A DNA stretch of 64,000 bases from Hyphomicrobiales bacterium (GTDB taxonomy: Bacteria; Pseudomonadota; Alphaproteobacteria; Rhizobiales; NORP267), in assembly GCA_021775875.1 (NCBI GenBank), contig JAJFHA010000002.1, positions 1 to 64,000 on the forward strand. The letters run 5' to 3'. Under the pieces are notes generated by a model. That model ran no database searches. It was not told where the DNA came from and worked only from the letters and a program-made list of their open reading frames with translations. Shown here one piece after another: positions 8,404 to 55,417 of the stretch (the stretch's first letter is position 1; every line of letters begins with the position of its first letter). A program made the translations under genes and the position numbers.

Positions 8404-8439
8404 GCTCTACGAAGTGAGAGTTTGCAAATAAAATAATCT

Positions 8440-8470: not shown

Positions 8471-8502
8471 CTTTACATCTCAACGAAGGCCTCGCAAAAT
8501 TC

Positions 8503-32719: not shown

Positions 32720-33040
32720 TAATGCGGAAAATACTATGGTTTAAATTTTACCTGGATGTAGCCGTAGAATGAAGGCAATTAATGAATCCTGACTCTAGCT
32801 GCAAGCGCAACGTGTCCATTGACGACAATGTTTTAAATCATGCCAATAAGGCATATCTGATAGCTTTGACATAGATTTGGATGATAGGGTGGGTTCCACT
32901 ATCGTTGGCAGTGCGTAAACCCTGAAATGAAGTTCTTAAGCAGGGCGGAAGCCAGAAAATTTGGGAAAGATGGCAGCAACCTGGTCATCTTGTGGCTAAC
33001 CGACGCCAGATCGGTGGCCAATTGAGGAAGGAAAACAATC
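32720..33040. other. 321-base intergenic region with a dispersed repeat
   Basis: No coding potential seen. It must hold the promoter of the ABC operon at 33041. It contains AGGCAATTAATGAATCCTGACTCTAGCT at 32773-32800, of which 25 of 28 bases recur at 60220-60247. AGGAAGG stands 12 bases before the next ATG. Confidence 0.5.
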
Positions 33041-34234
33041 ATGAAAACTCAATTTGAATTCAACCGCCGCGTAATGCTTCAGGCGATGGGCACAATCGCG
33101 GCAACGGCTGCTGCGAGCGGCATTCCATTCAGTAGCGCTTTTGCCGAAGGGCCCTTGAATATCTGGACGATCGGCGTTGCAAAAGTTGGAGCGGCGCCGG
33201 GAACCGGCGGGGCTGACTGGGGTGATATGGAGAGCCAAGCAGGCATCAAAATCGCTTATACTGCGAAAAGCGGTAGCGCCGACCAAGCCATACTGAAGAT
33301 GGTCGTTGGCGATGGCAACCAACTTTACGATGCCATCACTGATAATGGTGGCGGCATGGAAGATGCGCTTGCTTCGCAAGGTGCGATAGCGAAGATCGAC
33401 ACCTCCAAGATCGACAATTGGGGCAACCTGCTCGACCATTACCAAAGCGGTGGCATTGGTGAAGGCACGATCCGCCACGATGGTGACGTCTATGGGGTTC
33501 CTTATATTTCAAATGCAGATTCACTGGCCTATAACGGAAGTGAAATTGGTGGGACCCTGGATAGCTGGGAAGCGCTGTTTGACTCCCAGTTCAGGGGACG
33601 GGCAGCAATGCAGAATGATTTCGGGCCCACCTTCACCAACACCGGGATTTACCTGAAAGAGAGCGGCAAGCAGGACATCGAAAACCCATCAGACATGACG
33701 GAAGCTGAAGTTGCTGGTGTTGCTCAGTTCCTGATTGATTTGAAGAAACAGGGCCATTTTCGCACATTCTGGGATGGCTTCCAGAACGGTGTCGACATCC
33801 TTGCCAGCGAAGAAGTGCTGGTGTCTTCATGTTGGGAGCCTGTCCAGATCGTGGCCGCCAGAAAGAGCGGCAAGGATATCCGCTATGGCACGATGAAAGA
33901 GGGTCACCAGACTTGGAACAATATCTGGATGTTGACCAATGGCGGTGTGGAACGCGGCAGGGCAGATGATTTCTACAAGCTTATGAATACCTATCTGTCA
34001 CCGTGGTTTGGCGCACGTACCCTTCTGACATTTGGCTTTGCGCCGCAAATGAACGGCGTTCTTGAGTATATCGAGGGCGCTTCAGAATTTGAAGCGGCAG
34101 CCAAGGAAACGGTCGCGCAACGGCTCGCGAATAAGAATGCGCGTTACGCGGTTAGCGGAAATTCGTGGCAAAATGTATTCCCGACAAATATCCGTGCGTA
34201 TCAGGATTGGTGGGCGAAAGTGCAAGCTGCCTGA
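33041..34234 (+). CDS. ABC transporter substrate-binding protein, polyamine/PotD type, 397 aa
   Basis: Periplasmic binding protein of the SBP_bac type. It has an N-terminal export signal (FNRRVMLQAMGTIAATAAASGIPF; the RR suggests Tat, though it is not a full SRRxFLK). Blocks ILKMVVGDGNQLYDAITDNGG, DGDVYGVPYISNADSLAYN, SWEALFDSQFRGRAAMQNDF and NGGVERGRADDFYKLMNTYLSPWFGARTLL are those of PotD/PotF-like proteins. True polyamine binders use a cluster of acidic residues that I cannot confirm, so the ligand is open. First gene of a four-gene transporter operon. Confidence 0.85.
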   Translation: MKTQFEFNRRVMLQAMGTIAATAAASGIPFSSAFAEGPLNIWTIGVAKVGAAPGTGGADWGDMESQAGIKIAYTAKSGSADQAILKMVVGDGNQLYDAITDNGGGMEDALASQGAIAKIDTSKIDNWGNLLDHYQSGGIGEGTIRHDGDVYGVPYISNADSLAYNGSEIGGTLDSWEALFDSQFRGRAAMQNDFGPTFTNTGIYLKESGKQDIENPSDMTEAEVAGVAQFLIDLKKQGHFRTFWDGFQNGVDILASEEVLVSSCWEPVQIVAARKSGKDIRYGTMKEGHQTWNNIWMLTNGGVERGRADDFYKLMNTYLSPWFGARTLLTFGFAPQMNGVLEYIEGASEFEAAAKETVAQRLANKNARYAVSGNSWQNVFPTNIRAYQDWWAKVQAA

Positions 34235-34262
34235 TCATCAGTCACAACGCAGTGAAATTCAG

Positions 34263-35192
34263 ATGATCCGCACGAACAAGACACAAGTAGGGGGAGGCCG
34301 GACAATTCTGGCTTCCCCGACTTTTTTCGGCCGCCTATTTGGCGATAACGGTTTGCAAAAATACCTGTTTTATCTGCCTGCGATTTTTATGGTCGTGTTC
34401 TTCCTGATCCCGACGCTATTGACAATCGTATGGAGTTTTTTTGAACGCACATTGTTCTGGATGGAACCCGGTTTCACCTTTTTCTCGTACATAAATTTTT
34501 TTACATCCGCCCGGTTCGATAATTTTCTGTCGTCGATGTTTCATTCCGGTATTTCTGTGATCATCTGTTTTATTCTTGGGTTTCCGATTGCTGTGTTTGT
34601 ACGCAGGCACGTCCCCCAGGTCGCTCAGCACAGGGTAATTTTGCTCTTCATTTTGCCGTTTATGGTGTCTGAGATCATTCGTACTTTCATGCTGCGCCCA
34701 GTGCTTGGGAGAAACGGTCTGGTGAACACCTTTCTTCAAAAACTGGGCATCATTTCAGAACCGATTACCTCAATCTTGTTCACTCCGCTCGGTGTGATTA
34801 TCGGCGAAGTCATGTCGTTTTTGCCATTTATCGTTTTCGCGGGATTCCTGGCGATGGAAGCCGTGCCAAAATACATATTTGAAGTTTGCCAGGATCTTGG
34901 TGCGAGCCGATGGCGTGTTTTTGTCGATATTATAGTGCCGCTGGCGGCACCGGGTATTTTTGCAGGCGGCGTCTTCATTTTCGTAAATGGGCTTGGTGTT
35001 GCCCTTATCCCCAATATTCTCGGCGGACCGGGAGCAGTGAATGCCGGTCTGATTGCGACACAAGCTATTTCCGCGCTTGATTTTCCGCTCGCAATGGCGG
35101 TGAGCGCGATCATGATGATCACTCTGCTGGGGCTGCTGTTTGTTGGTCACAGACTGTTCAACCTGACCCGCATTCTAGAACCGATTGCATGA
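34263..35192 (+). CDS. ABC transporter permease, PotB type, 309 aa
   Basis: Inner-membrane permease with six segments. The start at ATG 34263 avoids a long overlap with the binding-protein gene. FYLPAIFMVVFFLIPTLLTIVWSF is the first segment. EVCQDLGASRWRVFVDIIVPLAAPGIFAGG (about 205-234) is the EAA loop that docks to the ATPase. It shares the PotB layout and lies directly before the second permease. Confidence 0.85.
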   Translation: MIRTNKTQVGGGRTILASPTFFGRLFGDNGLQKYLFYLPAIFMVVFFLIPTLLTIVWSFFERTLFWMEPGFTFFSYINFFTSARFDNFLSSMFHSGISVIICFILGFPIAVFVRRHVPQVAQHRVILLFILPFMVSEIIRTFMLRPVLGRNGLVNTFLQKLGIISEPITSILFTPLGVIIGEVMSFLPFIVFAGFLAMEAVPKYIFEVCQDLGASRWRVFVDIIVPLAAPGIFAGGVFIFVNGLGVALIPNILGGPGAVNAGLIATQAISALDFPLAMAVSAIMMITLLGLLFVGHRLFNLTRILEPIA

Positions 35193-35199
35193 GGCGCTC

Positions 35200-36090
35200 A
35201 TGACGGATGAATTTTCCAGCGTCTGGTCCTATCGGCTGAAGTGGCTTTACCTGTTACTGCTGGTCGCGACCCTCATGGTTCCGGTCTTTTACAACCTCTA
35301 TATTTCCTTCAACAAGTTCGGGTTCGGTGCCTATAATTACGAATTTACGTTGCAATGGTACTCGGTCGTATTCCAAGATCAGCTGCTTTTGAGTGCTTTT
35401 GGCTGGACTATGCTTTTGGCGCTGTGCACGGTTATGACCGCTGTACCGCTTGGATTGGTTGCTGCTAAATTCTTCAAAACCACGCGTTTCAAGGTGTGGT
35501 TTGTCGCGCTCCTCCTGCTGCCACTTTTCGTTCCCGCAGATATCGTTGCGGCGTCATTACTGGTCTTTTTCAAAAATCTGAGTTTCTCACTTAGCTGGCT
35601 TGCGGATATGACGGGCCTGAGCTGGTTAGGTGGGTGGTTTGATCTGGGCTTCATGACGGCGCTGATCGGCTTGATCATCTACACCATCCCCTACATATTT
35701 ATTGTGATCCTGATCACAATGGGTCGGTATCATCCGCAACAAACGGAAGCTGCACGCAGTTGCGGGGCAACCGCGTGGCAAGCCTTTCGTGACGTGGAAT
35801 TCCCACAAATTCGCGCCGGGATTTTTTCTGCCGCTGCGTTCACAATCATTTTGACATTCAACGAATATACCCGGACCAGTATGCTGAAGGGCGGGTTTGA
35901 TACCTTCACAAGTGTCCTGATTTCCCAAATGCTGAACACCGGAATGTCCGAACAATCATATGCCATGGGCGGCATCGTAAGCCTTGTAGCCATCCTTACA
36001 ATCGGTGGCATTATCGCTTTCACAATGTTGAGAGTACAGAGCCTGGAGCGTACCCAGCGGTTGAAAGTCAACGCGGACATGTCAGGCTAA
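35200..36090 (+). CDS. ABC transporter permease, PotC type, 296 aa
   Basis: Second permease, six membrane segments. QTEAARSCGATAWQAFRDVEFPQIRAGIFSAAAFTIILTFNEYTRT (about 180-226) is the EAA loop and the following PotC-like segment. I start it at ATG 35200, seven bases after the upstream stop; a TTG at 35185 is possible. Pairs with the PotB-type permease. Confidence 0.85.
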   Translation: MTDEFSSVWSYRLKWLYLLLLVATLMVPVFYNLYISFNKFGFGAYNYEFTLQWYSVVFQDQLLLSAFGWTMLLALCTVMTAVPLGLVAAKFFKTTRFKVWFVALLLLPLFVPADIVAASLLVFFKNLSFSLSWLADMTGLSWLGGWFDLGFMTALIGLIIYTIPYIFIVILITMGRYHPQQTEAARSCGATAWQAFRDVEFPQIRAGIFSAAAFTIILTFNEYTRTSMLKGGFDTFTSVLISQMLNTGMSEQSYAMGGIVSLVAILTIGGIIAFTMLRVQSLERTQRLKVNADMSG

Positions 36091-36109
36091 ACTGAATTGA
36101 GAGACCAAG

Positions 36110-37210
36110 TTGAAGAATACGACTGATATAGCTGTTGAAAGTATAGGGCTTTCGAAAAACTATGGCACTGTAACCGCGCTCAAATCAGTTGATCTGAAGA
36201 TCGCGAGCGGCCAATATTATGTATTGCTCGGCCCCAGCGGCGGCGGCAAAACTACGCTATTGCGGCTGATTGGCGGGTTTCTTCGCCCGACAAACGGACA
36301 GATCTATTTGCACGGTCACGATGTCAGTAACGTGCCACCCAATTTGCGCCCAACATCTATGGTGTTTCAGAGTTACGCACTTTTTCCTCATATGACCGTT
36401 GCTGGAAATGTTGGTTACGGGCTGAAACTGAAGAAACTGCCTTCAGCTGAAATAGCCGAAAAAGTTGTGGCGATGCTTTCCCTTGTCGGCCTGTCAGGTT
36501 TTGAAGACCGGTTGCCGCATGAATTGTCCGGTGGTCAGCAACAGAGAGTGCAACTTGCCCGGGCTTTGGTGTTGGAGAGCGACGTTATTCTTCTGGACGA
36601 ACCTCTGGCGGCACTTGATGCCAAGTTGCGCAAGGATATGTGCTTCGAACTTAAACAAATCCAGGAACAAGTCGGAATCACGTTCGTTCATGTGACGCAC
36701 AACCAGGAAGAGGCCATGACAATCGCTGACAGGATAGCCATCATCGCGGATGGCGAGCTGATAGAAGAGGGAACACCTCAGGATATCTATAGGGAACCTG
36801 TAAAGCGTTTCACAGCTGGCTTCATTGGCGAGAACAATATCGTTGATGGCAAGGTCACGGCGGTCAAGGGTACACAGGCTAAGGTTGACGTCGGATCAAC
36901 GACCATAGCTGCCAACAGCCGCAGCAAAAATTTGTCGGTTGGCGACCAGGTTGCGGTATCAATCCGCTCCGAGCTTTGTCGCATCCTTGGTGAGAATGAG
37001 AAAAACGTGCGCAACGTGCAGAAAATTCCCGCGACCTACGTAGAGGAGTTTTTCCTTGGTCTCACGGTTTCCCACCTTGTAAGGCTGAAAACCGGCGCAG
37101 ATATGATCGTGCGGGAAAGCAGCGACAGGGCCGGAACAAGTGAGTTCTCTGAAGGGGACGATATCTATTTGGCCTGGGAACTTGGCGATGCCAGATTGCA
37201 TACATCCTAA
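36110..37210 (+). CDS. ABC transporter ATPase, PotA type, 366 aa
   Basis: ATP-binding subunit starting at TTG 36110. Walker A GPSGGGKTTLLRLIGGF (about 38-54), Q-loop MVFQSYALFPHMTV, signature LSGGQQQRVQLARAL and Walker B VILLDEPLAALDAKLR with H-loop HVTHNQEEAM are all intact. The C-terminal 100 residues form the TOBE regulatory domain (FIGENNIVDGKV, VSIRSELCRIL). The operon ends here and converges on the MmgE/PrpD gene, 47 bases away. Confidence 0.9.
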   Translation: MKNTTDIAVESIGLSKNYGTVTALKSVDLKIASGQYYVLLGPSGGGKTTLLRLIGGFLRPTNGQIYLHGHDVSNVPPNLRPTSMVFQSYALFPHMTVAGNVGYGLKLKKLPSAEIAEKVVAMLSLVGLSGFEDRLPHELSGGQQQRVQLARALVLESDVILLDEPLAALDAKLRKDMCFELKQIQEQVGITFVHVTHNQEEAMTIADRIAIIADGELIEEGTPQDIYREPVKRFTAGFIGENNIVDGKVTAVKGTQAKVDVGSTTIAANSRSKNLSVGDQVAVSIRSELCRILGENEKNVRNVQKIPATYVEEFFLGLTVSHLVRLKTGADMIVRESSDRAGTSEFSEGDDIYLAWELGDARLHTS

Positions 37211-37257: not shown

Positions 37258-38691
37258 TCAGGCCACCATTTGCCTGCGGCCAGCCTTACCGCGCCAGTCC
37301 AGCAGGTTGAAAATTTCCGAAACGTCGTCTTGGTCTTCCAGTGACCAAACGAAATCAAATACCTCCTGGATCTTTGCATCTGACATGAGGCCGTCGGCGC
37401 AGTCCCTGAATTTGCCTTCGAGCTCTTTGTCACTTAGCGGGTTGTGTGGTCCGCCTCGGTAATTCTCATCGGCCCATTGGGTCAGATGCCGGCCGTCCTT
37501 GGTCCATATCTCGACACGTGAACGAATCCGGTCATGTCCCATGGCGTCAATGTCAGAATCGAATTCCGTTCCGATCTTGCGCTGCATGGCCTGCACATCA
37601 TCCCGCTGCACGAATTCATCCGTAAATTCTGCTTTGCCAGCTTTGCCAGCAATAATCATCGAGCCAAGCAAAAATGCCATACAGAACTTGCCTTCAAGTT
37701 CGGTGTTGGCAATTTCAAACCGGATCGGATGTAAAATGTTGTTTGCCGCAAATAATGTAACTTTCTCAATGTCGTCGGGCTTGAGATTGTGATCCTGCAT
37801 CACTTTCAATACCGCATCCATGCTCGGATGGGTAAGGACACCACAGGGATAAGGCTTGATGCTGACGCCCGGACTAACGATCGTGAACGGATCCCCAAAC
37901 CGGTCAATTACAAATTCGGGTTCGCCGCCACGACCTGCGACAGCCAAATAACCCCATTGGCCATCAAGCGCGGTTTCATTTGCAGTAAAGCCTTCACGCA
38001 CCATCAATGCCGCGACCACACCATTCTCCGATGAGCGTCCCACGTGAAATGGTTTGCCCATCGTTCCAAAATTCGCCCTGATGCCAGCTGCCATTGATGC
38101 TGCGAGCCCGATGCACATGGCGACATCGCCCAGTTCGAGTTCCAGCAATTTTGAAGCCGCGACCGCTGACCCAAAAGTCCCCAATGTACCACTTGAATGA
38201 AAGCCCAGATTGTAATGGTCTGGGTTAATTGCCTCAGCGATCTTGCACTCAACCTCAAAACCCGCATTGAACGCGGTCAGAAAGGTTTTGCCGTCTACAC
38301 CACCCAGCATGTCGGAAATCGCCAGACCTGCCGAAAGTGGTGGCATCGTGGGATGAGTCAGGAGACCATAAGGTCGGCCCGGACCTTCTGCCAACTGGGT
38401 ATCGTCCCAGTCCATGGCGTGACCGGCAAGGCCATTCCAGAATGCCGAGAGATGGGCTGGAACCTTCAGGCTGGCATCACCAATAACCCGGGCATCGGCC
38501 GTACCGCCCGTCCGCCGGATGTATCTTTCGGCAACATCAATGGCTTCCTGCTCGCTACCGGCAAGCTGGACGGCGAGACCATCAAGAATACACCGTCGTG
38601 CGATCCTGATGGCATCATCAGGAATGGCATCGTAGGTCAGGCTGGTCGCAAATTTCGCTGCGTTCCCGGTCAGTGTTTTTAGTTCGCTCAC
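37258..38691 (-). CDS. MmgE/PrpD-family protein, 477 aa
   Basis: Family of 2-methylcitrate dehydratase (PrpD), cis-aconitate decarboxylase and iminodisuccinate epimerase. The N-terminal helical domain has AIRIARRCILDGLAVQLAGS, SAFWNGLAGHAMDWDD and LTHPTMPPLSAGLA; the C-terminal part has VSIKPYPCGVLTHPSMDAVL. The GTG at 38691 is preceded by AAGGAGA, and the in-frame extension before it overlaps the next gene's end. The substrate is unknown; a carboxylic acid with a labile alpha or beta position is typical. Last gene of the seven-gene minus-strand operon. Confidence 0.85.
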   Translation of the reverse strand: MSELKTLTGNAAKFATSLTYDAIPDDAIRIARRCILDGLAVQLAGSEQEAIDVAERYIRRTGGTADARVIGDASLKVPAHLSAFWNGLAGHAMDWDDTQLAEGPGRPYGLLTHPTMPPLSAGLAISDMLGGVDGKTFLTAFNAGFEVECKIAEAINPDHYNLGFHSSGTLGTFGSAVAASKLLELELGDVAMCIGLAASMAAGIRANFGTMGKPFHVGRSSENGVVAALMVREGFTANETALDGQWGYLAVAGRGGEPEFVIDRFGDPFTIVSPGVSIKPYPCGVLTHPSMDAVLKVMQDHNLKPDDIEKVTLFAANNILHPIRFEIANTELEGKFCMAFLLGSMIIAGKAGKAEFTDEFVQRDDVQAMQRKIGTEFDSDIDAMGHDRIRSRVEIWTKDGRHLTQWADENYRGGPHNPLSDKELEGKFRDCADGLMSDAKIQEVFDFVWSLEDQDDVSEIFNLLDWRGKAGRRQMVA

Positions 38692-38711
38692 GTAATTCTC
38701 CTTGAATTTTG

Positions 38712-39380
38712 CTATTCGGCTGCGCGGCCTTGATCGGATACGTTGCCCCAGATATCGGAAATTTCTGTGCATGTGCTGACGACGCCAAAGCGCGCGTTCA
38801 CGGTCTTTAAAGTTGCCTCATGAAGCGACATGTCCCAGGACGCCACTGCATCTTCGGGTACACAGACATAGTAAGAATATTCGAATGCGTCGCGCACAGC
38901 ACTTTCAACGCAAACGTTGGTGGACACGCCAGTCACTATCACTGAACGGATTTCATGAGCACGCAAGAGCATGTCGAGGTCTGTGCCCTTGAAGGCGCTG
39001 TAGCGATGCTTGAAAATTTTTAATTCGCCGTCAGTTGGATTCAGTTCGTCGATGAATTCAGCGCCTTCGCTGTCCTCGATTGCGATTTTGTCTGACGCAT
39101 AGGTCGACCGCCTGCGCTGGGTCAGCCAGGGTCCGGAATCGCTCATGTGATCAGGCAGGGTCCAGAACCCGATATGGCAGACAAGAACCCCTGCGCGATT
39201 GGCTGCCGCGCGCAAATTTACAATTTGAGGGATAATCGACTGGGCGGCTTTAAGAGGCCGGCCAGCCTTGCTGGTGGCAAAGCCGTCAATGCAGAAATCC
39301 TTTTGCATGTCGATAATGAACAGGGCCGTATGAGCCGGGTCGATACGTTCTTCCAGCGATTGCAGGATGGGTGGTTCCAT
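38712..39380 (-). CDS. isochorismatase-family cysteine amidohydrolase, 222 aa
   Basis: The catalytic triad can be read: Asp in ALFIIDMQKDF (about residue 24), Lys in FKHRYSAFKGTDLD (about 119) and Cys in VTGVSTNVCVESAVRDAFEY (about 154). GVSTNVCVESAVRDAF is close to N-carbamoylsarcosine amidase, RutB (ureidoacrylate amidohydrolase), biuret hydrolase and the maleamate amidohydrolase NicF, all of which release ammonia from small amides. Next to a PuuE-like ring-opening enzyme, a half-amide or ureido acid is the likely substrate. AGGAG precedes the ATG. Three bases separate it from the deacetylase gene. Confidence 0.85.
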   Translation of the reverse strand: MEPPILQSLEERIDPAHTALFIIDMQKDFCIDGFATSKAGRPLKAAQSIIPQIVNLRAAANRAGVLVCHIGFWTLPDHMSDSGPWLTQRRRSTYASDKIAIEDSEGAEFIDELNPTDGELKIFKHRYSAFKGTDLDMLLRAHEIRSVIVTGVSTNVCVESAVRDAFEYSYYVCVPEDAVASWDMSLHEATLKTVNARFGVVSTCTEISDIWGNVSDQGRAAE

Positions 39381-39383
39381 GAT

Positions 39384-40259
39384 TCAGGCTCCTTCACTGT
39401 CCGCGGCAAGAAACCAGTCCAAAATCTGGCTACCGTTCATAAAGACCACATTATCATGGGCCATTAGATCGTCGAGCATGCGTTTCAGATATCCGATACG
39501 GTGCGGCACCCCGATAAGATGCGGGTGCAGCCCAATAGCCAATATCCGGGGCTGGTGTTCAAGTTCAGGCTGGAACGCCTCAAGCGTATCTGCCAGTCGC
39601 CGATACATTTCTGGCGAGGCATGCTTTTCGATTGCATAGATAATGCTGTCATTGATTTCCATATTGTAAGGCATCGCGACGAGGGGCCCGTGTTCGGTCT
39701 TCATCCAGACCGGCAAATCGTCGAGGACCCAGTCACAAACATATTCAATTCCAAGGTTTTTGAGGATATCGGGAGTGTCGACGGTCTCCTTCAGACCGGG
39801 GCTGAGCCAGCCGCGCATTGATATTCCCGTGAACGCCTCGATTTTTTCTTTGGCCATGGCGATTAACCCGGCTTCGTCGGTTTCGCCCTGGATTGAACGC
39901 TGGTGGATACCGTGTCCGATAAATTCCCAACCCGCATTCAACATGGCTTCGGCGCATTGTGGATAAGCATCGATGACCCCCGCATTGATACTCGTGCTTG
40001 CTGGCAACCCCCTTGATGCTAACATTTCCAAAATGCGCGGCATGCCGCATCGCATGCCGTATTCCGCCCACGAATAATTGGGGATATCCGGCACCTGTTC
40101 CAGTCCGTGCGGCGCTGTGATGATCTTGCGCGGCATTGCGTTCTCAAACTCCCAATGCTCGACATTCACGACCAGATGGACAATCAGGCTTTTGCCATCA
40201 GGGGGGGCAAGCGACGAGCGCTCATTCGACATCTGGTAGGGAATGCGGGGATTGGTCAT
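39384..40259 (-). CDS. polysaccharide-deacetylase-like cyclic amidohydrolase (PuuE/imidase type), 291 aa
   Basis: NodB-like barrel of the branch that contains metal-independent allantoinase PuuE and cyclic-imide hydrolase rather than sugar deacetylases. Typical stretches are IVHLVVNVEHWEFE (about 26-39), NYSWAEYGMRCGMPRILEML, STSINAGVIDAYPQCAEAM, EFIGHGIHQRSI and RGWLSPGLKETVDTPDIL. ILAIGLHPHLIGVPHRI (about 240) is the second His motif. It would open a cyclic amide, imide or ureide. It is linked by short gaps to the amidase and SDR genes. Confidence 0.82.
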   Translation of the reverse strand: MTNPRIPYQMSNERSSLAPPDGKSLIVHLVVNVEHWEFENAMPRKIITAPHGLEQVPDIPNYSWAEYGMRCGMPRILEMLASRGLPASTSINAGVIDAYPQCAEAMLNAGWEFIGHGIHQRSIQGETDEAGLIAMAKEKIEAFTGISMRGWLSPGLKETVDTPDILKNLGIEYVCDWVLDDLPVWMKTEHGPLVAMPYNMEINDSIIYAIEKHASPEMYRRLADTLEAFQPELEHQPRILAIGLHPHLIGVPHRIGYLKRMLDDLMAHDNVVFMNGSQILDWFLAADSEGA

Positions 40260-40280
40260 TTTGTGTTGCTCTCTGGTTCC

Positions 40281-41072
40281 TTAAGGTAGTGCTTTCGTCC
40301 AGCCGCCATCAGCAGTGATCGACGTACCTGTCATATTGGCGGCAGCGTCAGAAGCGAGAAACGTGACGATGCGAGCAATCTCGTCTGGCGAAGCTAATCG
40401 GTTCATCGGAATTTCTTTCATGAAACCACTCTCGACGTCTTTTACCGACTGATTTGTCGAACTCGCCAAATTTTCCATCAAGGTATTCCAGCGTTCGGTT
40501 CGCGTAGGCCCGGGATTGACAGCGTTCACCACAACACCGTCTTGGGCCACTTCGTCTGCGAGGCCCTTGGTGACAGCAAGGAGTGCGGCATTGGCCGCAG
40601 CGCCTGGCAACATGCGGGGATTGGGTTGTTGTCCCGTATTGCCCACGATTGTGACGATGCGACCGTATTCGTGTGTTCGCATTTGTGGAATGACGGCGCG
40701 GATCATGCGTATCGTCGCCATGAATTTGAGCTCCATGCTGTCCTGCCAGACCTGGTCCGGGATATCCCAAAATACCCCACCCTGGGAAGCGCCTGCGCAA
40801 TTCACCAAAATATCGATGCGGCCAAACCGCTCTAAGGCGGATGCAACAATAATATCAGCGCTGGCAGGGTCGGTCAGATCGGCAGCGAGAAACGCAGCTT
40901 CGACGCTGTGTCGTCCAACGATATTGGCCGCCGTTTTTTCAAGATCGGCACTATTGCGTGCGGTGAGGAATAAATTGGCCCCTTCAGCAGCGAGCCTTTC
41001 GGCGCTTGCCGCACCCAAACCTTTGTTGCCGCCGGTTATAAGAGCAATTTTGCCTTCGAGTCCTAGATCCAT
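40281..41072 (-). CDS. SDR-family protein lacking the catalytic Tyr and Lys, 263 aa
   Basis: Classical SDR fold: nucleotide loop TGGNKGLGAASAERLAAEGA (about 14-33), ADLTDPAS, NCAGAS and the C-terminal GTSITADGGW. The active-site segment that should read YxxxK aligns as GAAAN within LPGAAANAALLAVTKGLADEV (about 156-176), so Tyr and Lys are replaced, and the upstream Ser position reads VGNTG. It may bind NAD(P) without normal dehydrogenase chemistry, or belong to an atypical SDR branch with its own mechanism. Fourth gene of the operon. Confidence 0.8.
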   Translation of the reverse strand: MDLGLEGKIALITGGNKGLGAASAERLAAEGANLFLTARNSADLEKTAANIVGRHSVEAAFLAADLTDPASADIIVASALERFGRIDILVNCAGASQGGVFWDIPDQVWQDSMELKFMATIRMIRAVIPQMRTHEYGRIVTIVGNTGQQPNPRMLPGAAANAALLAVTKGLADEVAQDGVVVNAVNPGPTRTERWNTLMENLASSTNQSVKDVESGFMKEIPMNRLASPDEIARIVTFLASDAAANMTGTSITADGGWTKALP

Positions 41073-41085
41073 TTTCGCCTACCCA

Positions 41086-41937
41086 TCAATCCACAAACAC
41101 TATTTCGGCTTCCATTGCTGTACCGCCATGGTTGTTGGCAGCCACAAGCCGGCAACTATTTTCGTCGGCATTCATGCCGCCGGCAATGGTAAACGGCGCT
41201 GTATCAAATAACGGGCTGATGGCCCGGAAACTGAATTGAGCAATCGCCCGGTTACCCGTTTCTCGCCGTGCCAGTTCGCACAAAAGCGTTGCAATCAGCG
41301 GCCCGTGGACCACGAGACCCGGATATCCCTCAACCTTGGTCACATAGGGATGATCGTAATGAATCCGGTGGCCGTTAAAAGTCAGCGCCGAATACCGGAA
41401 CAACATGACCGGGTCCGGCGTCACCGTTTCCCGCCAGCTCAAGCCACCAAGCTCAGCCTTTGGTGGCGGGCGTGGCGCCGTTTTTGGTTCGTCCCGATAA
41501 ACAATGGTGTTTTCTTCTTCAATCGCTAGCCCGCGTTGCGACGAAATTCGGAGTTGGACACGGACAAAAACCAAGGGCCCACTTTGCCCTTCTTTCCGGG
41601 TTATTTCTATAATTTCGCCTTCGCGGGTAATGGTGTCACCAACCCGTATCGGTTCATGCTGGATTGTTTTTGCGCCAGCAAACATGCGCCGGGGTAGCGG
41701 AATAGGTGGCAGGAAACCGCCACGTTTTGGGTGGCCGTCAGGACCAATTTGAGATTGCGGCGCTTTAGGCATGAAGAACATCCAGTGCCAGGTCAATGGC
41801 AGCGGGTCTCCAATATCTGGTGCGGGCTCTTCCCGGTCCAGCATTGCTGCCATGCCGCGCACGTGTCCAAGTGTAACCTGGTCATCCGCTGTTTCGGAGT
41901 TGCCAAGCCAGTCTTCGAATTGATCGGAACCACTCAT
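41086..41937 (-). CDS. MaoC-type acyl-CoA hydratase (mesaconyl-C4-CoA hydratase/HTD2-like), 283 aa
   Basis: Double hot-dog protein. The N-terminal half is the FAS1-like dehydratase domain (GDPLPLTWHWMFFMPKAPQS, LPRRMFAGAKTIQHEPIRVGDTITREGEI). The C-terminal half carries the MaoC motif: LFRYSALTFNGHRIHYDHPYV, then GYPGLVVHGPLIATLL, with the Asp/His-like catalytic area. Related enzymes hydrate mesaconyl-CoA or other enoyl-CoAs. ATGA overlap with the CoA-transferase gene supports a shared CoA-ester step. Confidence 0.85.
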   Translation of the reverse strand: MSGSDQFEDWLGNSETADDQVTLGHVRGMAAMLDREEPAPDIGDPLPLTWHWMFFMPKAPQSQIGPDGHPKRGGFLPPIPLPRRMFAGAKTIQHEPIRVGDTITREGEIIEITRKEGQSGPLVFVRVQLRISSQRGLAIEEENTIVYRDEPKTAPRPPPKAELGGLSWRETVTPDPVMLFRYSALTFNGHRIHYDHPYVTKVEGYPGLVVHGPLIATLLCELARRETGNRAIAQFSFRAISPLFDTAPFTIAGGMNADENSCRLVAANNHGGTAMEAEIVFVD

Positions 41938-43094
41938 CCGTTATGCCGTTTTTGGGTTCGCGGAGCCGAATCCACAGCGAATTCTTCACGCAACATATTT
42001 GAATGCTCGCCAATAGCCGGCACCGGTCTGAATGCAGGTTGATCATCTGAAAATCGGATCGGGTTGGCAGTGACATTCACCGGGCCACCGGGTGTATCAA
42101 TCACCTCACGCCGAAGCTGGGGATGGTTCAATAAATCCGCCACGCCGTTCAAATTGCCAAATGCGATACGGGCGTCTTCAAGTCTGGCAACGATCGCTTC
42201 CCGGTCGAGCGAGCAAAATACATCGCCTATGATCCCGTTCAATTCATCACGATGCGCTACACGGGCCGAATTGGTTTTGAACCGCTGGTCGCCTCCCAAC
42301 GACTCATCTCCCAATACGGTCTTACAAAAACGTACCCATTCCCGTTCATTTTGAATGGCAATAACAACTTGATGCTTGTCGCGGGTCACATAAGCCCCAT
42401 AAGGCGCAATGGAGGGGTGATTTATACCCACCCGCTCCGGCGCTTTGCCGGTATGTTCGACAAACATTTGCGGGACTGTCATCCAGTCCGCCATGCAGTC
42501 GAAGAGCGAGATATTGATGCCCTTGCCACGACCGGTCCGGTTGCGTTCATGCAACACCTCAAGGATAGCGACAAGCGTATACATACCGGCGGCGATATCC
42601 ACAATCGAAATGCCGACCCGCCCCGGGCTATCGGGCGTGCCGGTGATCGAGGTTAATCCGGACTCGCACTGGATCAGCAGATCGTAGGCTTTCATTAGTG
42701 CGTAGGGGCCTTCTTCGCCATAACCGCTTATGTCGCAGGTGATCAGGCGCGGATACCGTTCACGCAGTTCCGCCGATCCAAATCCTGCGCGGTTGGCCGC
42801 GCCGGGCGCCAGGTTTTGCATTACAACGTCTGCTCTGGAAATCATCGTTTCCAGAAGGGCTGCGTCGTCTGCATCCTTGATATCAAGCTCGATTGATTCC
42901 TTGCCCCGGTTTAGCCAAACGAAATGGCTCGACTGGCCATGTACGATATCGTCATAACCGCGGGCAAAGTCGCCGCCCGGCCGCTCAACCTTGATGACTC
43001 TTGCGCCGGCATCAGCAAGCCTTGATGCGGCGAAAGGCGCCGCGACCGCCTGATCCAGAGATACAACCAGAATGCCATCGAGCGGGCCGGCCAT
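41934..43094 (-). CDS. family III CoA-transferase (CaiB/BaiF), 386 aa
   Basis: Moves CoA between carboxylic acids through an aspartyl-CoA. GILVVSLDQAVAAPFAASRLADAGARVIKVERPGGDFARGYD is the family start. FVWLNRGKESIELDIKD follows, then LIQCESGLTSITGTPDSPGRVGISIVDIAAGMY, which holds the region after the catalytic Asp. The usual catalytic 'YDLLIQ' motif is present as KAYDLLIQCE (about 135-145). It overlaps both neighbours. Succinyl-CoA is a common donor, but donor and acceptor cannot be read here. Confidence 0.88.
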   Translation of the reverse strand: MAGPLDGILVVSLDQAVAAPFAASRLADAGARVIKVERPGGDFARGYDDIVHGQSSHFVWLNRGKESIELDIKDADDAALLETMISRADVVMQNLAPGAANRAGFGSAELRERYPRLITCDISGYGEEGPYALMKAYDLLIQCESGLTSITGTPDSPGRVGISIVDIAAGMYTLVAILEVLHERNRTGRGKGINISLFDCMADWMTVPQMFVEHTGKAPERVGINHPSIAPYGAYVTRDKHQVVIAIQNEREWVRFCKTVLGDESLGGDQRFKTNSARVAHRDELNGIIGDVFCSLDREAIVARLEDARIAFGNLNGVADLLNHPQLRREVIDTPGGPVNVTANPIRFSDDQPAFRPVPAIGEHSNMLREEFAVDSAPRTQKRHNG

Positions 43095-44287
43095 CAGTAT
43101 GACCTCGGCAAATCGAGTACATGTTCAGCGATATAGGCAAGGATCATGTTCGTTGAGATCGGGGCGATTTGATAAAGCCGGGTTTCGCGCCATTTGCGCT
43201 CAACATCATATTCCTCGGCAAACCCGAACCCACCATGAGCCTGAAGACAAGCTTCGGCCGCCTCCCAAGAAGCATCGGCCGCGAGCATCTTTGCCAAGTT
43301 GGCTTCTTTACCGATGGATTCACCCAATTCATATTTCCGCGCAGCCTCCGCCACCATCAGCGCGGCGGCTTCGGTGGAGGCATAGGATCTGGCGATGGGG
43401 AACTGGACCCCCTGATTTTGGCCAATGGGACGGCCAAAAACCTGACGCTCCTTCACATAATTGGTGGCCTTTTCAATGAACCAGTGCGCATCCCCAATAC
43501 ATTCGGACGCGATAAGTACACGCTCGGCATTCATCCCGTCCAGAATATAACGAAATCCCTTGCCTTCTTCCCCGATCAGGTTCTCGGCGGGCACACGAAG
43601 ATTATCAAAAAACACTTCGGTGCTGCTGTGGTTGATCATCGCCCGGATCGGTTTGATTGTCAGGCCGTTACCGAGCGCTTCGCGCATATCAATTAAAATG
43701 GTGGAAAGGCCATCAGTTCGTTTTTCGACATTATCTTTCGGCGTTGTCCGCGCCAGTAAGAGCATTAGATCGGAATGCTCCGCGCGGGATGTCCAAACTT
43801 TTTGCCCGTTGATCACATAGTCATCCCCGTCACGAACAGCTGTTGTGCGCAGGCTGAGTGTGTCTGTGCCGCTTGTGGGCTCGGTTACCCCGAAAGCCTG
43901 GAGGCGCAATTCTCCGGACGCGATCATGGGCAGCCATTTCTCTTTTTGCGATGGAGAGCCATGGCGCAAAATCGTGCCCATTATATACATCTGAGCGTGG
44001 CAGGCAGCGGAGTTGCCGCCGCTTTTATGGATTTCTTCAAGAATTGCCGAAGCCGCGCGGATGCCAAGGCCGCTGCCACCAAATTCTTCCGGGATGAGGA
44101 CAGCGAGATACCCGGCCTTGGTCAGCGCGTCGACGAATTCCGTTGGATAGGTTTTGGTGCGGTCCTTCTCACGCCAATAGTCTCCGGGAAATGAAGCGCA
44201 TAGAGCCTGCACTGCATTCCGGATGTGCTCAATATCCGCTACAGACACATTTTGCGCGTCTGAGCGGTCTTCGGTAAACGTCGCCAT
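43094..44287 (-). CDS. acyl-CoA dehydrogenase, 397 aa
   Basis: FAD enzyme that makes an alpha-beta double bond in an acyl-CoA. From ATG 44287 (GGAGAG just upstream) the three domains are seen: N-terminal helices, LRLQAFGVTEPTSGTDTLSLRTTAVRDGDDYVINGQKVWTS (about 130-170), NHSSTEVFFDNLRVPAENLIGEEGKGF, and C-terminal AEACLQAHGGFGFAEEYDVERKWRETRLYQIAPIST. The catalytic Glu position, usually in 'GG.GY..E', is GGFGFAEEYDVE. First gene of the minus-strand operon and divergent from the LysR gene. Confidence 0.9.
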   Translation of the reverse strand: MATFTEDRSDAQNVSVADIEHIRNAVQALCASFPGDYWREKDRTKTYPTEFVDALTKAGYLAVLIPEEFGGSGLGIRAASAILEEIHKSGGNSAACHAQMYIMGTILRHGSPSQKEKWLPMIASGELRLQAFGVTEPTSGTDTLSLRTTAVRDGDDYVINGQKVWTSRAEHSDLMLLLARTTPKDNVEKRTDGLSTILIDMREALGNGLTIKPIRAMINHSSTEVFFDNLRVPAENLIGEEGKGFRYILDGMNAERVLIASECIGDAHWFIEKATNYVKERQVFGRPIGQNQGVQFPIARSYASTEAAALMVAEAARKYELGESIGKEANLAKMLAADASWEAAEACLQAHGGFGFAEEYDVERKWRETRLYQIAPISTNMILAYIAEHVLDLPRSY

Positions 44288-44395
44288 TGTCTCTCCAAAA
44301 TGGCTGGAATTGTATAGTTTCGTTGACGCTACGAGCGATCTTTGATCAATGATAAAAGTTGGATTAGTAACAACTAGAGCGATATTTGTGCTATC

Positions 44396-44405
44396 AGATA
44401 TATCT
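44396..44405. promoter_or_regulatory. candidate LysR site between divergent genes
   Basis: AGATATATCT is a perfect 10-base palindrome in the 148-base space between the acyl-CoA dehydrogenase (minus) and LysR (plus) starts, 31 bases before the latter. LysR proteins bind AT-rich partial palindromes in such spaces. Short and unproven. Confidence 0.3.
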
Positions 44406-44435
44406 AGATGGCATGAGCAATTTTGGTGGATGGTA

Positions 44436-45389
44436 ATGGAGCTCCGGCAACTCAAATATTTCGTGAATGTGTCCGAGCTCGGCAGTTTCACGCGCGCAGC
44501 GGCCTTCCTATCGGTCGCGCAATCTGCGCTCAGCCGACAGATTCACAATCTTGAAATGGAATTAGATACGCGCCTTTTGTACCGAACCGGGCGCGGGGTA
44601 GCGGTAACGGAATCAGGACAGCGGTTACTTGACCATGCGAAGACCATACTCGATCAAGTGGACCGTCTTGTTAACGACGTCGCTCATGATCAGGACCAGC
44701 CAAGTGGAACCGTGACCCTTGGCATCCCGCCCACAATTACCCTCGTTTTAGTGACGCCCCTGATCCGCAATCTGCGCGCCAATCATCCAGGCATTACACT
44801 CCAGGTTGTTGAGGGTTTCAGCGGGTTCGTGAATGAATGGCTGGCCTCCGGAAAACTTGATATCGCTATATTGTACGACGCACCGCGCATGCGCCATTTG
44901 CAGACGGAAAAACTGCTCACCGAAGCACTATACTTGATCGGCGACGGTAATACCCGAAGCCAGAAGCAATCAATTCCTTTTAGCGAGGTCGCTAAATTAC
45001 CGTTGATATTGCCAAGCCGCCCGCACGGCCTGCGTCTTCTGATTGACAATTATGCTGCTCGGGAGGGCAAGACACTCACGATTGACTGCGAATTGGACTC
45101 ACTGACAGCAATCAAGGAACTCGTTGAGGAAGGTGCCGGTTGGACGATTCTGTCCTATGCATCCGTTCACCGGGAAGTTGAAAGCAAGCGATTGAGTGCG
45201 CGGCGCATCCTAAAACCAAAGATCAGCCGCGATCTGGTGCTTGCGACGTCTACTCAGCGCCCGATGTCGCGAGCCGTGAGTATTTTGATTGCCCAAATCC
45301 ATGAAGAAGTGGATCACCTCATTGAATCCGGCAAATGGCAGGGTGCCAGACGACAGACCCGAAAACACTCTGACAAAGGCCTCAAATGA
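44436..45389 (+). CDS. LysR-family transcriptional regulator, 317 aa
   Basis: From ATG 44436: ELRQLKYFVNVSELGSFTRA, then AAFLSVAQSALSRQIHNLEMELDTRLLYRTGRGVAVTESG is the LysR winged helix (residues 1-65). The effector domain follows (GTVTLGIPPTITLVLVTPLIRNLRANHPGITLQVVEG). It resembles the CbbR/CynR/NAC-type branch. It lies divergent from the seven-gene catabolic operon and overlaps the second MmgE/PrpD gene by four bases, so it probably controls both sides. Confidence 0.9.
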   Translation: MELRQLKYFVNVSELGSFTRAAAFLSVAQSALSRQIHNLEMELDTRLLYRTGRGVAVTESGQRLLDHAKTILDQVDRLVNDVAHDQDQPSGTVTLGIPPTITLVLVTPLIRNLRANHPGITLQVVEGFSGFVNEWLASGKLDIAILYDAPRMRHLQTEKLLTEALYLIGDGNTRSQKQSIPFSEVAKLPLILPSRPHGLRLLIDNYAAREGKTLTIDCELDSLTAIKELVEEGAGWTILSYASVHREVESKRLSARRILKPKISRDLVLATSTQRPMSRAVSILIAQIHEEVDHLIESGKWQGARRQTRKHSDKGLK

Positions 45390-46756
45390 GTCTAACCCAA
45401 GATCTTGTTGAAATCCTGAGCCGTCCGATCAGCGCTCAAGACCGGGCTCGGGCGGTTTGTCACATTATAGACTGGCTCGGTGTAGCCTCGATCGGTGCGA
45501 CCGCTCCTGCTGGGCGGTCTCTATCGGAATATGGTCGTCGCCAGACAGCAGGTTCGAGCCATGTGTTTGGGGTTGGGCGGAGAAGCGCTGAAACAGCCGC
45601 TTTTGTGAATGCCGGACTTGGCAACATTTTTGAAATGGATGATCTCCATCGTACGTCGATCGTTCACGCCGGCGATGTTGTTGTCCCAGCGGCTCTCTCA
45701 GTAGCTGAACGGGAAGGTTCGACCGGTACTGCACTCCTTGATGCCATTATCAGAGGATATGAAGCTGCTATTCGTATCGGCATAGGCGCTGGCCGAGGGC
45801 ATTACCAACTCTGGTATAACACCGCCACTTGCGGGGTTTTCGGATCGGCTGCAGCTGTTGCCAGTCTGCTCGGGCTCAACCGGGATATCACAGTGCATGC
45901 GTTGGGGCAGGCTGGCGCTATGTCATCAGGGACCTGGCAATGCCGCATTGAGCCAACGGATACCAAGCAGGTGCTCACCGCCAGGGCAGCGCAATCTGGA
46001 TTGATTGCTGCAGATCTGGCGGCGACTGGTCTAAAGGGCCCACAGCAAATTCTTGAGGGGAGCCACGGGTTGTTTGCCGCTGCTGCGCCAGGTGCCGATG
46101 GCAGGCAGGTGGTTGCAGACACGACAGCACCCTGGAAAATCCACGATGTGAGTTTCAAACCATGGTCGGCTTGCCGTCATACTCACCCGATGATTGAAGC
46201 CGCGTTGGCTCTGCGCGATGAAATAGCAGTTGAGGAAATCGATGTTATTGAAATTCAATCCTACGCCGAAGCGCTGGATTTTTGCGACAATTCTGTCCCG
46301 GCAACTCCCCATGAAGCGCGCTTTAGTCTGCAATATTGTGCGGCGACGGCTATCTTGAACGGGCCGCCGCGTATGGAGGATTTTTCACCGTCTGCGATTA
46401 CTTCACCAGAAACATTACTGCTTGCTTCCAAAGTCAGTTTGGCCGAGGACGTAGAATTCACCCAAAATTTTCCGCGATGTTACGGAGCCAGCATGAAGGT
46501 ATGCTCCAAAAATGGAGGCACCAGGACAAAAACCGTTGCGACAGCGCTAGGTGATCCCGAAAACCCCATGAGTAAGGAAGACCTAGTATCGAAATCCCGG
46601 CGATTGATCGCTATGGCTGGCTACGATTTGGAGGCGGCTGACACCTCCATTGCGGCCTGTCATGCCCTGTTGGATGACGGCTCGCCAGGTAACATTCTGT
46701 CCGCATTGATCGGGTCAGATAATAGTCAATCCAGCAAGGTGGAGAGAAAAAAATGA
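45386..46756 (+). CDS. second MmgE/PrpD-family protein, 456 aa
   Basis: Same family as the gene at 37258 but clearly diverged: RAVCHIIDWLGVASIGATAPAG, NAGLGNIFEMDDLHRTSIVHAGDVVVPAALSVAER (usual 'DD.H....HPG..v.PAALA'), GIGAGRGHYQLWYNTATCGVFGSAAAVASLLGL and VSFKPWSACRHTHPMIEAAL. Two paralogues in one locus suggest two related steps or two isomers. It is coupled to LysR upstream and cupin downstream. Confidence 0.85.
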   Translation: MSLTQDLVEILSRPISAQDRARAVCHIIDWLGVASIGATAPAGRSLSEYGRRQTAGSSHVFGVGRRSAETAAFVNAGLGNIFEMDDLHRTSIVHAGDVVVPAALSVAEREGSTGTALLDAIIRGYEAAIRIGIGAGRGHYQLWYNTATCGVFGSAAAVASLLGLNRDITVHALGQAGAMSSGTWQCRIEPTDTKQVLTARAAQSGLIAADLAATGLKGPQQILEGSHGLFAAAAPGADGRQVVADTTAPWKIHDVSFKPWSACRHTHPMIEAALALRDEIAVEEIDVIEIQSYAEALDFCDNSVPATPHEARFSLQYCAATAILNGPPRMEDFSPSAITSPETLLLASKVSLAEDVEFTQNFPRCYGASMKVCSKNGGTRTKTVATALGDPENPMSKEDLVSKSRRLIAMAGYDLEAADTSIAACHALLDDGSPGNILSALIGSDNSQSSKVERKK

Positions 46757-47112
46757 CCATGCCGAAACCAGCAATCGATTTTCATGAAATCGATATTGAG
46801 GAGGGTTGGGAACCGGCTCCCGGCGCAGCGCCGGGCGTTGAACAAAAAATGCTGTCCGGTGAACTGGATGAAACTGCGCAGATTGGTGTTCGCACCCGCT
46901 TGATAAGGTTTCTGCCGGGTGCAGAAGTCGCCGACCAGTTTGTACATGATTATTGGGAAGAGGTTTATTTTATCGAGGGCACGTTAGATGTTGGAGGAAA
47001 ACTCTATAACCCACCTGCATATGCTTGCCGCCCTCCTGGAACGCCTCACGGGCCATTCAAATCAGAGACGGGATGCCTGTTTTTTGAAGTCCAGTATTAT
47101 TTGAACGGGTAG
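46753..47112 (+). CDS. cupin-domain protein, 119 aa
   Basis: Single small cupin. FLPGAEVADQFVHDYWEEVYFIEGTLDVGGKLYNPPAYACRPPGTPHGPFKSETG contains the two cupin motifs with His/Glu metal ligands (His in VHDYWEEV, His in GTPHGP). This is the ChrR/anti-sigma-like or dioxygenase-like cupin type; the function is open. ATGA overlap with the MmgE/PrpD gene. Likely last gene of the LysR transcript. Confidence 0.75.
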   Translation: MTMPKPAIDFHEIDIEEGWEPAPGAAPGVEQKMLSGELDETAQIGVRTRLIRFLPGAEVADQFVHDYWEEVYFIEGTLDVGGKLYNPPAYACRPPGTPHGPFKSETGCLFFEVQYYLNG

Positions 47113-47370: not shown

Positions 47371-48087
47371 TTAATGGGCCAGCAACGCCGATAGTCTGGA
47401 AGCTGCTTCACGCAGCGGAGGGATCAACAATTCAGCGTTAAAGCGTGTGTCGGGCCCGACTAGCGACAGGGAGGCGAGGCAATCGCCTGTGGGGCCAAAC
47501 ACCGGGACCGCCACAACTGCAATGCCTTGTAGCGTTGTCCCGCCACCCGCGATCGAGATTTGACTGGATTTTACCGTCTTCAAAATTTTGTCAGATGCGG
47601 TTTTTATTCCCTTTTTGGCAAGCCGGTGGCGTAAATCGTCCGGACCAAATGCCGTCCAGATTTGTCCTGACGCACTTTCAGAGAACGACATTTCAGCCCC
47701 TAATCTCAAGTCTGCGCGCAGCACTCCGCGAGATTCAACACGCTGGGCTATAACAACCTTGTCGTTTTCCAGAACCACAAGCGAACTGGTTTCTCCGGTT
47801 GCGACTGTCAGATTTTCGAGAATCGGTAGTGCGCGGTCCCCGAACCCGGCTTGTTCCAATGCCGCATTTGCAATCCGGCAGGCACGCATCGACAACCTGT
47901 AAGTACCGTCCGGCAACCGGTCTACCCATCCAGCGGTCGTAAGCGTCAAAAGCCGCTGATAGCTGGTTGCCCGTGTCTCTCCCATTTTCCGGGCAAGCTG
48001 GGAAAGGCGAATGGGGCCAGGTAAGTCTGCCAGGGTGTCCAGTACATCGAAACACTTCAGTGCGGTGGATAAAGGGCGAGCGCTCAT
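47371..48087 (-). CDS. IclR-family transcriptional regulator, 238 aa
   Basis: N-terminal winged helix: STALKCFDVLDTLADLPGPI, then RLSQLARKMGETRATSYQRLLTLTTAGWVDRLPDGTYRLS (about 6-65). The GAF-like effector domain has FSESASGQIWTAFGPDD, GGGTTLQGIAVVAVPVFGPTGDCLASLSLVGP. IclR proteins control aromatic and other acid catabolism. It is divergent from the CoA-transferase gene at 48214, heading the long catabolic cluster. The 258 bases before its end (47113-47370) hold no gene that I can support. Confidence 0.9.
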   Translation of the reverse strand: MSARPLSTALKCFDVLDTLADLPGPIRLSQLARKMGETRATSYQRLLTLTTAGWVDRLPDGTYRLSMRACRIANAALEQAGFGDRALPILENLTVATGETSSLVVLENDKVVIAQRVESRGVLRADLRLGAEMSFSESASGQIWTAFGPDDLRHRLAKKGIKTASDKILKTVKSSQISIAGGGTTLQGIAVVAVPVFGPTGDCLASLSLVGPDTRFNAELLIPPLREAASRLSALLAH

Positions 48088-48104
48088 AGATTTATTTTCT
48101 CAAT

Positions 48105-48158
48105 TTGTATTCTATATAAATACATTTACTTTAAATAGAATACAAGATCAAATTGATC
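48105..48158. promoter_or_regulatory. inverted repeats in the IclR/CoA-transferase divergent promoter
   Basis: TTGTATTCTAT (48105-48115) and ATAGAATACAA (48135-48145) are perfect 11-bp inverted repeats with 19 bases between. GATCAAATTGATC (48146-48158) is a further palindrome directly after. The position between divergent genes and the symmetry suggest binding by the IclR dimer or tetramer. Confidence 0.55.
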
Positions 48159-48213
48159 AAAATCAGAAAACGGGCGTTAAGGAGCATGTTCAGGTGACTT
48201 TGAGAGGCAAAAT

Positions 48214-49461: not shown

Positions 49462-49478
49462 TAGAGGAACCTAGCCCT

Positions 49479-50258: not shown

Positions 50259-50267
50259 GACAGCGCC

Positions 50268-55413: not shown

Positions 55414-55417
55414 AATC

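Follow-up and report, generated by a model that had tools for sequence, protein, structure and literature searches.

The window analysed here, a stretch of 64,000 nucleotides from a Hyphomicrobiales bacterium (contig JAJFHA010000002.1, positions 1 to 64,000), carries on its minus strand an operon of seven genes (37258-44287) which is real and not a chance grouping, and which is predicted to be the core of a larger regulon including an ATP-binding cassette (ABC) importer. From the promoter to the end, the operon encodes an acyl-CoA dehydrogenase (ACAD), a family III CoA-transferase, a MaoC hydratase, a short-chain dehydrogenase/reductase (SDR)-fold protein, a PuuE-like protein, an isochorismatase-fold amide hydrolase and an MmgE/PrpD protein. 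We tentatively propose, at somewhat less than even confidence, that this regulon, under LysR control, serves the catabolism of a small cyclic imide bearing a side chain, most simply of the 2-alkyl-succinimide type. All the substrate assignments in this proposal are ones that we infer.

The operon and the predicted regulon

The seven genes, in the order given by the original prediction, were confirmed by the open reading frame (ORF) listing and by Pfam scans. Each of the proteins scored above the cut-off of its Pfam family (ACAD, CoA-transferase III, FAS1-type MaoC dehydratase, SDR, polysaccharide-deacetylase fold, isochorismatase and MmgE/PrpD). The genes are close-packed: the ACAD gene (43094-44287) overlaps the CoA-transferase gene (41934-43094) by 1 bp and the latter overlaps the MaoC gene (41086-41937) by 4 bp, then gaps of 13, 21 and 3 bp lead to the SDR (40281-41072), PuuE-like (39384-40259) and amide hydrolase (38712-39380) genes. 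The ACAD start at 44287 was retained and the ORF limit at 44491 was not used. For the last gene, MmgE/PrpD 1 (37258-38691), the gene itself was in place and the start formerly set at 38772 was replaced by a more likely GTG at 38691 preceded by AAGGAG; therefore, the overlap with the amide hydrolase gene disappears. The grouping was considered to be more than chance because the same gene order recurs in another genome (G332; G and L numbers are our labels for genomes and loci) and because operon partners were found near 23 of 36 other PuuE-like loci.

The original prediction drew the extent of the system too small, as the divergent genes and the convergent importer are predicted to belong with the operon. 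On the plus strand, a gene for a LysR-type regulator (about 44436-45389; the start MELRQLKYF was chosen in an ORF that opens at 44349) is followed, with successive 4 bp overlaps, by a second MmgE/PrpD gene (45386-46756) and by a gene for a small ChrR-like cupin (46753-47112), with orthologues of 64-67% identity in L057 and L089. The four-gene ABC importer (33041-37210, plus strand) converges on the operon and comprises a substrate-binding protein (SBP_bac_6, 33041-34234), two permeases (34263-35192, whose start was set after the binding-protein gene in an ORF opening at 34062, and 35185-36090) and an ATPase with a TOBE domain (36110-37210). Orthologues of the binding protein, 66-68% identical, stand beside PuuE-like genes in L011, L057, L086 and L089.

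The divergent gene pair and the importer are both preceded by the same operator-like element. When the ACAD/LysR gaps of the window, of G332 (L120), of L010 and of L011 were aligned, GCTAYCAGATAT was common to all of them. A 12-base core taken from these four gaps was scanned over 1.68 Mb of fetched sequence, which returned the four gap sites and one more, at 32853 before the importer of the window. All five core sites extend to the composite element GCTAYCAGATAT-N8-GGCATRA. The importer site, found at zero mismatches by the core scan, reads GCTATCAGATAT-N8-GGCATGA (32838-32864, minus strand); the site in the divergent gap, whose element is shared with L010, L011 and L120, lies at 44390-44416 (plus strand). 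Over the 3,125,735 bases of the genome, exactly two places match the composite at zero mismatches, namely these two positions; the next-best sites are five in number with 3 mismatches each, and the reversed control gave none. Shuffles of the window gave an expectation of 0.03 sites with 3 mismatches or fewer, and none of 100 shuffles reached two sites. The composite pattern was fitted to its own sites, and therefore the independent part of this result is the importer site found by the 12-base core. The composite is a predicted operator to which the LysR protein may bind.

Predicted functions of the encoded proteins

The CoA half of the operon is of an already known type. Its ACAD, MaoC and CoA-transferase are respectively 64.5%, 53.1% and 48.4% identical to proteins of a Variovorax plasmid locus (L064), which is annotated as a MaoC-ACAD-CoA transferase-MmgE/PrpD-LysR run with electron-transfer flavoprotein (ETF) genes and a CoA ester lyase, and which we call itaconate/methylsuccinate-type from its gene content. 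Homologues of Ich, Mcd and Ict, the set by which an itaconate/methylsuccinate cluster is recognized, are encoded together in the operon. The nearest solved relative of the MaoC protein is itaconyl-CoA hydratase (8khg, 228 bits); the tree of this family was poorly resolved. ACAD and MmgE/PrpD proteins of this kind were shown in C. necator and P. aeruginosa to be, respectively, a methylsuccinyl-C4-CoA dehydrogenase and a methylsuccinate isomerase, as stated in passages of PMC12290011; the genetics of the itaconate/methylsuccinate pathway in P. putida are given in a part of PMC9875883.

In a tree of 29 ACAD rows, largely picked from PuuE-bearing genomes and from which the program dropped two rows, the enzyme of the window falls in a clade of nine rows (99/96), all from PuuE-bearing genomes. 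The L064 enzyme belongs to a separate five-row clade (100/100), three rows of which (L020, L113 and L118) likewise come from PuuE-bearing genomes. Because the ACAD of the window thus lies in a sister clade to the L064 enzyme, it may fairly be said to work like Mcd; to call it Mcd itself goes beyond the evidence.

MmgE/PrpD 1 is probably best compared with IDS epimerase, its best solved match (187 bits), with cis-aconitate decarboxylase behind (143 bits). It possesses each of the seven residues (H85, D88, H99, Y145, H150, K198 and K266, including the second base Tyr145) that passages of PMC12290011 name for IDS epimerase, and the same residues are kept in the other nine rows of its PuuE-linked ten-row clade (94/90). 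Since residues and scores favour the epimerase type, assignments as 2-methylcitrate dehydratase or cis-aconitate decarboxylase were rejected, and the protein was annotated as a predicted substituted-succinate epimerase. In the MmgE/PrpD tree, in which the program flagged long branches and dropped one row, MmgE/PrpD 1 is placed outside the Msi clade. MmgE/PrpD 2 groups on the Msi side with proteins of L019, L022 and L057, all of them PuuE loci, and carries H85N and H150Y.

In the ring half, the model of the PuuE-like protein (predicted local distance difference test score 83) gave as its best PDB matches 1z7a, the PuuE structure 3cl6 and 3s6o, with template modelling scores of about 0.75-0.81. 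Going by this model, the protein has the fold of solved PuuE-type enzymes, that of the polysaccharide deacetylases. Against the PuuE equivalog TIGR03212, it scored 104.1 bits, far under the cut-off of 424.6. At the metal site of the PuuE-like enzyme, the second histidine of HpPgdA would correspond to Gln120 by spacing, but to His119 by alignment; Gln120 is conserved throughout 31 close relatives and His119 is invariant in 15 aligned rows. The amide hydrolase displays the isochorismatase fold with the D24, K124 and C157 motifs. Among solved structures it matches best two entries named cysteine hydrolase, followed by biuret hydrolase and RutB, and its scores remain under the equivalog cut-offs of both RutB (106.8 of 377.95 bits) and biuret hydrolase (101.8 of 370 bits).

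The SDR-fold protein lacks the classical Asn-Ser-Tyr-Lys tetrad, the equivalent positions being occupied by Lys116, Gly144, Gly157 and Asn161, and it keeps the nucleotide-binding glycines and the NAG motif. All 13 aligned relatives keep the Lys, the Gly at the Ser position and the Asn unchanged. Matches to the SDR model at 1e-55 were found in 129 of 385 sampled genomes; in the 30 loci that were fetched and checked for the signature, the Lys, Gly and Asn were present in all, with Gly, Ala or Ser at the Tyr position. Of seven relatives scanned against NCBIfam PRK06125 (cut-off 261 bits), four scored above (357-379) and three below (221-232), and the protein of the window scored 223.5. Because the Lys, Gly and Asn are invariant in the relatives and in the 30 loci, the SDRs of the Lys-Gly-Gly-Asn type are seen, at the level of sequence, to form a broad non-classical subfamily, and since the tetrad is missing, the protein of the window is probably not an ordinary dehydrogenase.

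Three readings of the SDR were discarded. A β-hydroxyacyl-CoA dehydrogenase acting after MaoC was rejected as first choice, as it would have to act on a citramalyl-type product, which is a tertiary alcohol, and as the tetrad is missing. For an imide-forming dehydrogenase like HxnW, the gene order is attractive, but the Asn/Ser/Tyr/Lys residues reported for HxnW in passages of PMC9304392 are absent. Finally, the signature is not a mark of PuuE loci alone, as 29 of 36 SDR places are not near a listed PuuE match. The window-like subclade itself was encountered nowhere but beside PuuE: all 7 SDRs scoring above 375 bits lie near a listed PuuE match, against none of the 29 in the band below; these seven SDRs are also in the alignment of the model, and this linkage is thus partly circular.

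Recurrence in other genomes

Linkage was surveyed in 36 loci besides the window, using PuuE-like proteins of at least 48% identity and partners within 12 kb, with identity thresholds of 38-55% according to the gene. The locus L009 (same metagenome-assembled genome as L007), L118 (same region as L086) and the duplicate contigs L072, L073, L075 and L078 were excluded from this count. As mentioned above, 23 loci contain one or more of the six operon partners: the amide hydrolase is present in 11, the ACAD in 11, MmgE/PrpD 1 in nine, the CoA-transferase in seven, the SDR in six and MaoC in three. LysR was found in six loci, the importer binding protein in four, the second MmgE/PrpD in three and the cupin in two. 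Several of these loci lie on short contigs, where an apparent absence may be due to missing sequence.

The order of the window, LysR/ACAD-CoA transferase-MaoC-SDR-PuuE, is reproduced in G332, the contig ending inside the PuuE-like gene. An ACAD-CoA transferase-SDR-PuuE-MmgE arrangement occurs in G178, G308 and G405, and G482 is alike without the SDR at that place. Where the amide hydrolase of the window type is missing, other C-N hydrolases occupy the PuuE run. An M24 creatinase/prolidase-like gene lies between SDR and PuuE in L080 (12520-13782, by hidden Markov model (HMM); two opposite-strand ORFs also stand between), and a like gene was seen by eye in L082 (about 8100-9409). Genes annotated as amidase are present in L023 (Pfam Amidase) and L024, on Azospirillum and Variovorax plasmids, and are not adjacent to PuuE. 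In L012, SDR and PuuE are together, and about 7 kb away, on the opposite strand, are a CoA-transferase and a RipC/Ccl-like lyase under the cut-off (229 of 375).

Among 385 members of the class, the ACAD was detected in 16 of 18 PuuE-bearing genomes versus 107 of 366 others (one-sided Fisher p 4.9e-7, with the genome of the window left out, PuuE matches under 48% identity counted as PuuE-negative, and uncorrected for kinship and genome size). In a wider sample of the phylum, a PuuE-like match at 1e-60 was obtained in nine of 398 genomes, that of the window included.

Some neighbouring genes were recorded besides these partners. A GMC oxidoreductase gene adjoins the ACAD gene in L083 (5376-6983, by HMM) and in L085 (14200-15819, by eye). 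In L009, genes for a FAD monooxygenase and for a protein of the arylmalonate decarboxylase/EutA family (5941-8052) are situated downstream of ACAD-CoA transferase-PuuE-amidase.

Proposed pathway, alternatives and known systems

In the proposed pathway, the ABC importer would take up the ring compound, which the PuuE-like enzyme would open by hydrolysis to a half-amide. The isochorismatase-fold enzyme would then hydrolyse the amide, giving ammonia and a substituted succinate, the C2 epimers of which would be interconverted by MmgE/PrpD 1. The family III CoA-transferase would form the CoA ester, the ACAD the α,β-unsaturated CoA ester, and MaoC would hydrate the latter to a citramalyl-CoA-like product. 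The final C-C cleavage would be encoded elsewhere or be of a different kind, and the SDR-fold protein, probably no classical dehydrogenase, is placed on the ring side. The original prediction had a cyclic imide or similar nitrogen ring opened, deaminated to an unsaturated diacid and processed as a CoA ester. This reading is partly supported: homology and linkage speak for a ring opener, an amide hydrolase and the processing of a C4-C5-type dicarboxylate as its CoA ester in one operon; owing to the presence of the ACAD, a saturated substituted succinate is preferred to the unsaturated diacid. The imide ring itself is putative, as the named solved relatives of the amide hydrolase, biuret hydrolase and RutB, act on ureides. 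In a more extended form, which we regard as doubtful, the carbon of alkylated cyclic imides (for instance methylsuccinimide, citraconimide or tetrapyrrole-derived imides) would enter the methylsuccinate-type CoA module, with the Lys-Gly-Gly-Asn SDR-fold protein acting non-classically on the nitrogen ring.

Several observations weigh against the imide pathway. No citramalyl-CoA lyase gene is present in the operon and no good candidate was found genome-wide: the genome holds five HpcH/HpaI proteins, which in their best matches share at most 34% identity with reference lyases, and the four of them that were scanned scored 122-177 against the RipC cut-off of 375. MmgE/PrpD 1 shares only 29% identity with the Msi homologue, and the ACAD falls outside the clade of the L064 enzyme. 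Such ACADs are found in 124 of 385 sampled genomes and are therefore not specific to PuuE, and 13 of the 36 other PuuE-like loci contain none of the six scored operon partners. The importer binding protein has a weak likeness to polyamine-binding proteins, which is not suggestive of an imide. Lastly, the ureides on which the relatives of the amide hydrolase act, together with an M20 gene of the N-carbamoylase type that precedes PuuE-amidase in L014, favour a ureide ring.

The latter points lead to an alternative that we judge unlikely, in which the ring is of the hydantoin or dihydropyrimidine type. The PuuE-like enzyme would open it to a ureido acid, whose ureido group the isochorismatase-fold enzyme would cleave, and the CoA enzymes would act on the remainder once it had been deaminated by an enzyme encoded elsewhere. 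In favour of this, PuuE is an allantoinase, the amide hydrolase scores highest with the models of RutB and biuret hydrolase, and an aminotransferase gene accompanies the M20 gene near PuuE-amidase in L014. However, an amino acid would remain at the end of this route, yet no aminotransferase or deaminase is encoded in the operon or its coupled neighbours, the CoA-transferase and Mcd-type ACAD suit a diacid directly, and the PuuE-like protein scores far under the PuuE equivalog cut-off.

A six-membered imide is rather improbable in our opinion; the ring would then be a glutarimide- or pyridine-derived dione, its opening would resemble that in the nicotinate route of fungi, and a glutarate-type acid would pass to the CoA ester. 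The opening of piperidine-2,6-dione by the fungal pair HxnM/HxnN, described in passages of PMC9304392, is a precedent for this, and the best NCBIfam score of the CoA-transferase is with succinate-glutarate CoA-transferase, under the cut-off (249.6 of 750). On the other hand, the ACAD is under the glutaryl-CoA dehydrogenase cut-off (210.7 of 470), the MaoC and ACAD proteins resemble enzymes of C5 branched succinates, and a C4 dicarboxylate frame is common to the substrates of the characterized MmgE/PrpD enzymes, according to passages of PMC12290011. Just as improbable is the existence of two functions under one promoter, a nitrogen-scavenging amide/imide pair beside an independent pathway for branched dicarboxylates, the two having no carbon flow in common: in G227 the halves are on separate contigs (SDR-PuuE-amidase-MmgE in L074, ACAD-CoA transferase-MaoC in L100) and ACAD-type genes are far commoner than PuuE, but the enrichment of the ACAD in PuuE-bearing genomes and its position within 12 kb of PuuE in 11 of 36 loci argue for a connection.

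The proposed imide regulon was compared with known systems. Like the itaconate/methylsuccinate cluster (PA0878-0883 of P. aeruginosa, and C. necator; ich, mcd, mmgE/msi, ict, ccl), the operon joins MaoC, ACAD, family III CoA-transferase and MmgE/PrpD. In contrast to that cluster, it has no ccl, its MmgE/PrpD protein is from another subfamily, its ACAD is in a sister clade, and SDR, PuuE-like enzyme, amide hydrolase and ABC importer are added. For the ring half, the HxnM/HxnN pair may serve as a working analogue, as the fungal nicotinate segment HxnW-HxnM-HxnN of A. nidulans also comprises an SDR, a PuuE-related cyclic imidase and an amidase in sequence. HxnM is linked to the polysaccharide deacetylase fold through HpPgdA and PuuE and is structurally nearest HpPgdA (passages of PMC9304392), whereas the PuuE-like enzyme of the window is nearest PuuE types; HxnW has the residues that the SDR of the window lacks, and the passages on the fungal segment contain no CoA steps such as those of the operon. 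PuuE allantoinase shares its fold and sequence family with the window enzyme (1z7a, 3cl6) but is set apart by the equivalog score, and the neighbours in the window are not uricolytic. The amidase HxnN is not known to be of the isochorismatase fold. Blastobacter and P. putida reportedly convert imides to half-amides and dicarboxylates by a cyclic imide hydrolase and a half-amidase, and that route is not known to include a CoA-ester module.

No description of the joint gene set was found in a literature search by title and abstract opening, most subscription journals being outside it, nor a paper on a gene cluster for a citrazinate/aconitamide route, a reading that was set aside. The CoA module belongs to a known type, and the folds of the ring opener and the amide hydrolase are known as well; their combination is new as far as found. 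If the proposal is true, the regulon would point out an environmental source for branched succinates, the origin of which was called unclear until recently in a part of PMC12290011, and a poorly known family of ring hydrolases would be tied to a defined catabolic module and a defined candidate operator. Furthermore, the broad SDR subfamily (PRK06125 and kin) is suggested not to consist of ordinary dehydrogenases.

Two other clusters were observed. In Aminobacter sp. SR38 plasmid pSR3 (L092, 1-14541), genes annotated as LLM oxidoreductase, aldehyde dehydrogenase, RidA, α/β hydrolase and flavin reductase adjoin MmgE/PrpD-ACAD-CoA transferase-MaoC-CoA ester lyase-ETF, with no PuuE in the stretch shown; this is apparently an upstream part for an N-heterocycle joined to the same CoA module. 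In the genome of the window, a second cluster on contig C12 (about 318.5-324.2 kb; L059, 7502-13171) contains genes for an isochorismatase-fold protein, two tandem PuuE-like proteins (about 29% identical to that of the window), a methylisocitrate-lyase-like protein under the cut-off, LeuC/LeuD (DmdB-family) hydro-lyase subunits and, by eye, an apparent TRAP transporter. It resembles a dimethylmaleate hydratase/lyase tail and, owing to this likeness, is possibly another imide pathway.

Beyond the cupin gene, the window contains, at 47371-60116, an IclR gene together with a separate, long CoA-catabolic run that has genes for a family III CoA-transferase, two enoyl-CoA hydratases, an AMP-ligase, an SDR, an ACAD, 3HCDH proteins, an alcohol dehydrogenase and FAD/Fe-S proteins; this stretch is probably independent of the seven-gene operon.

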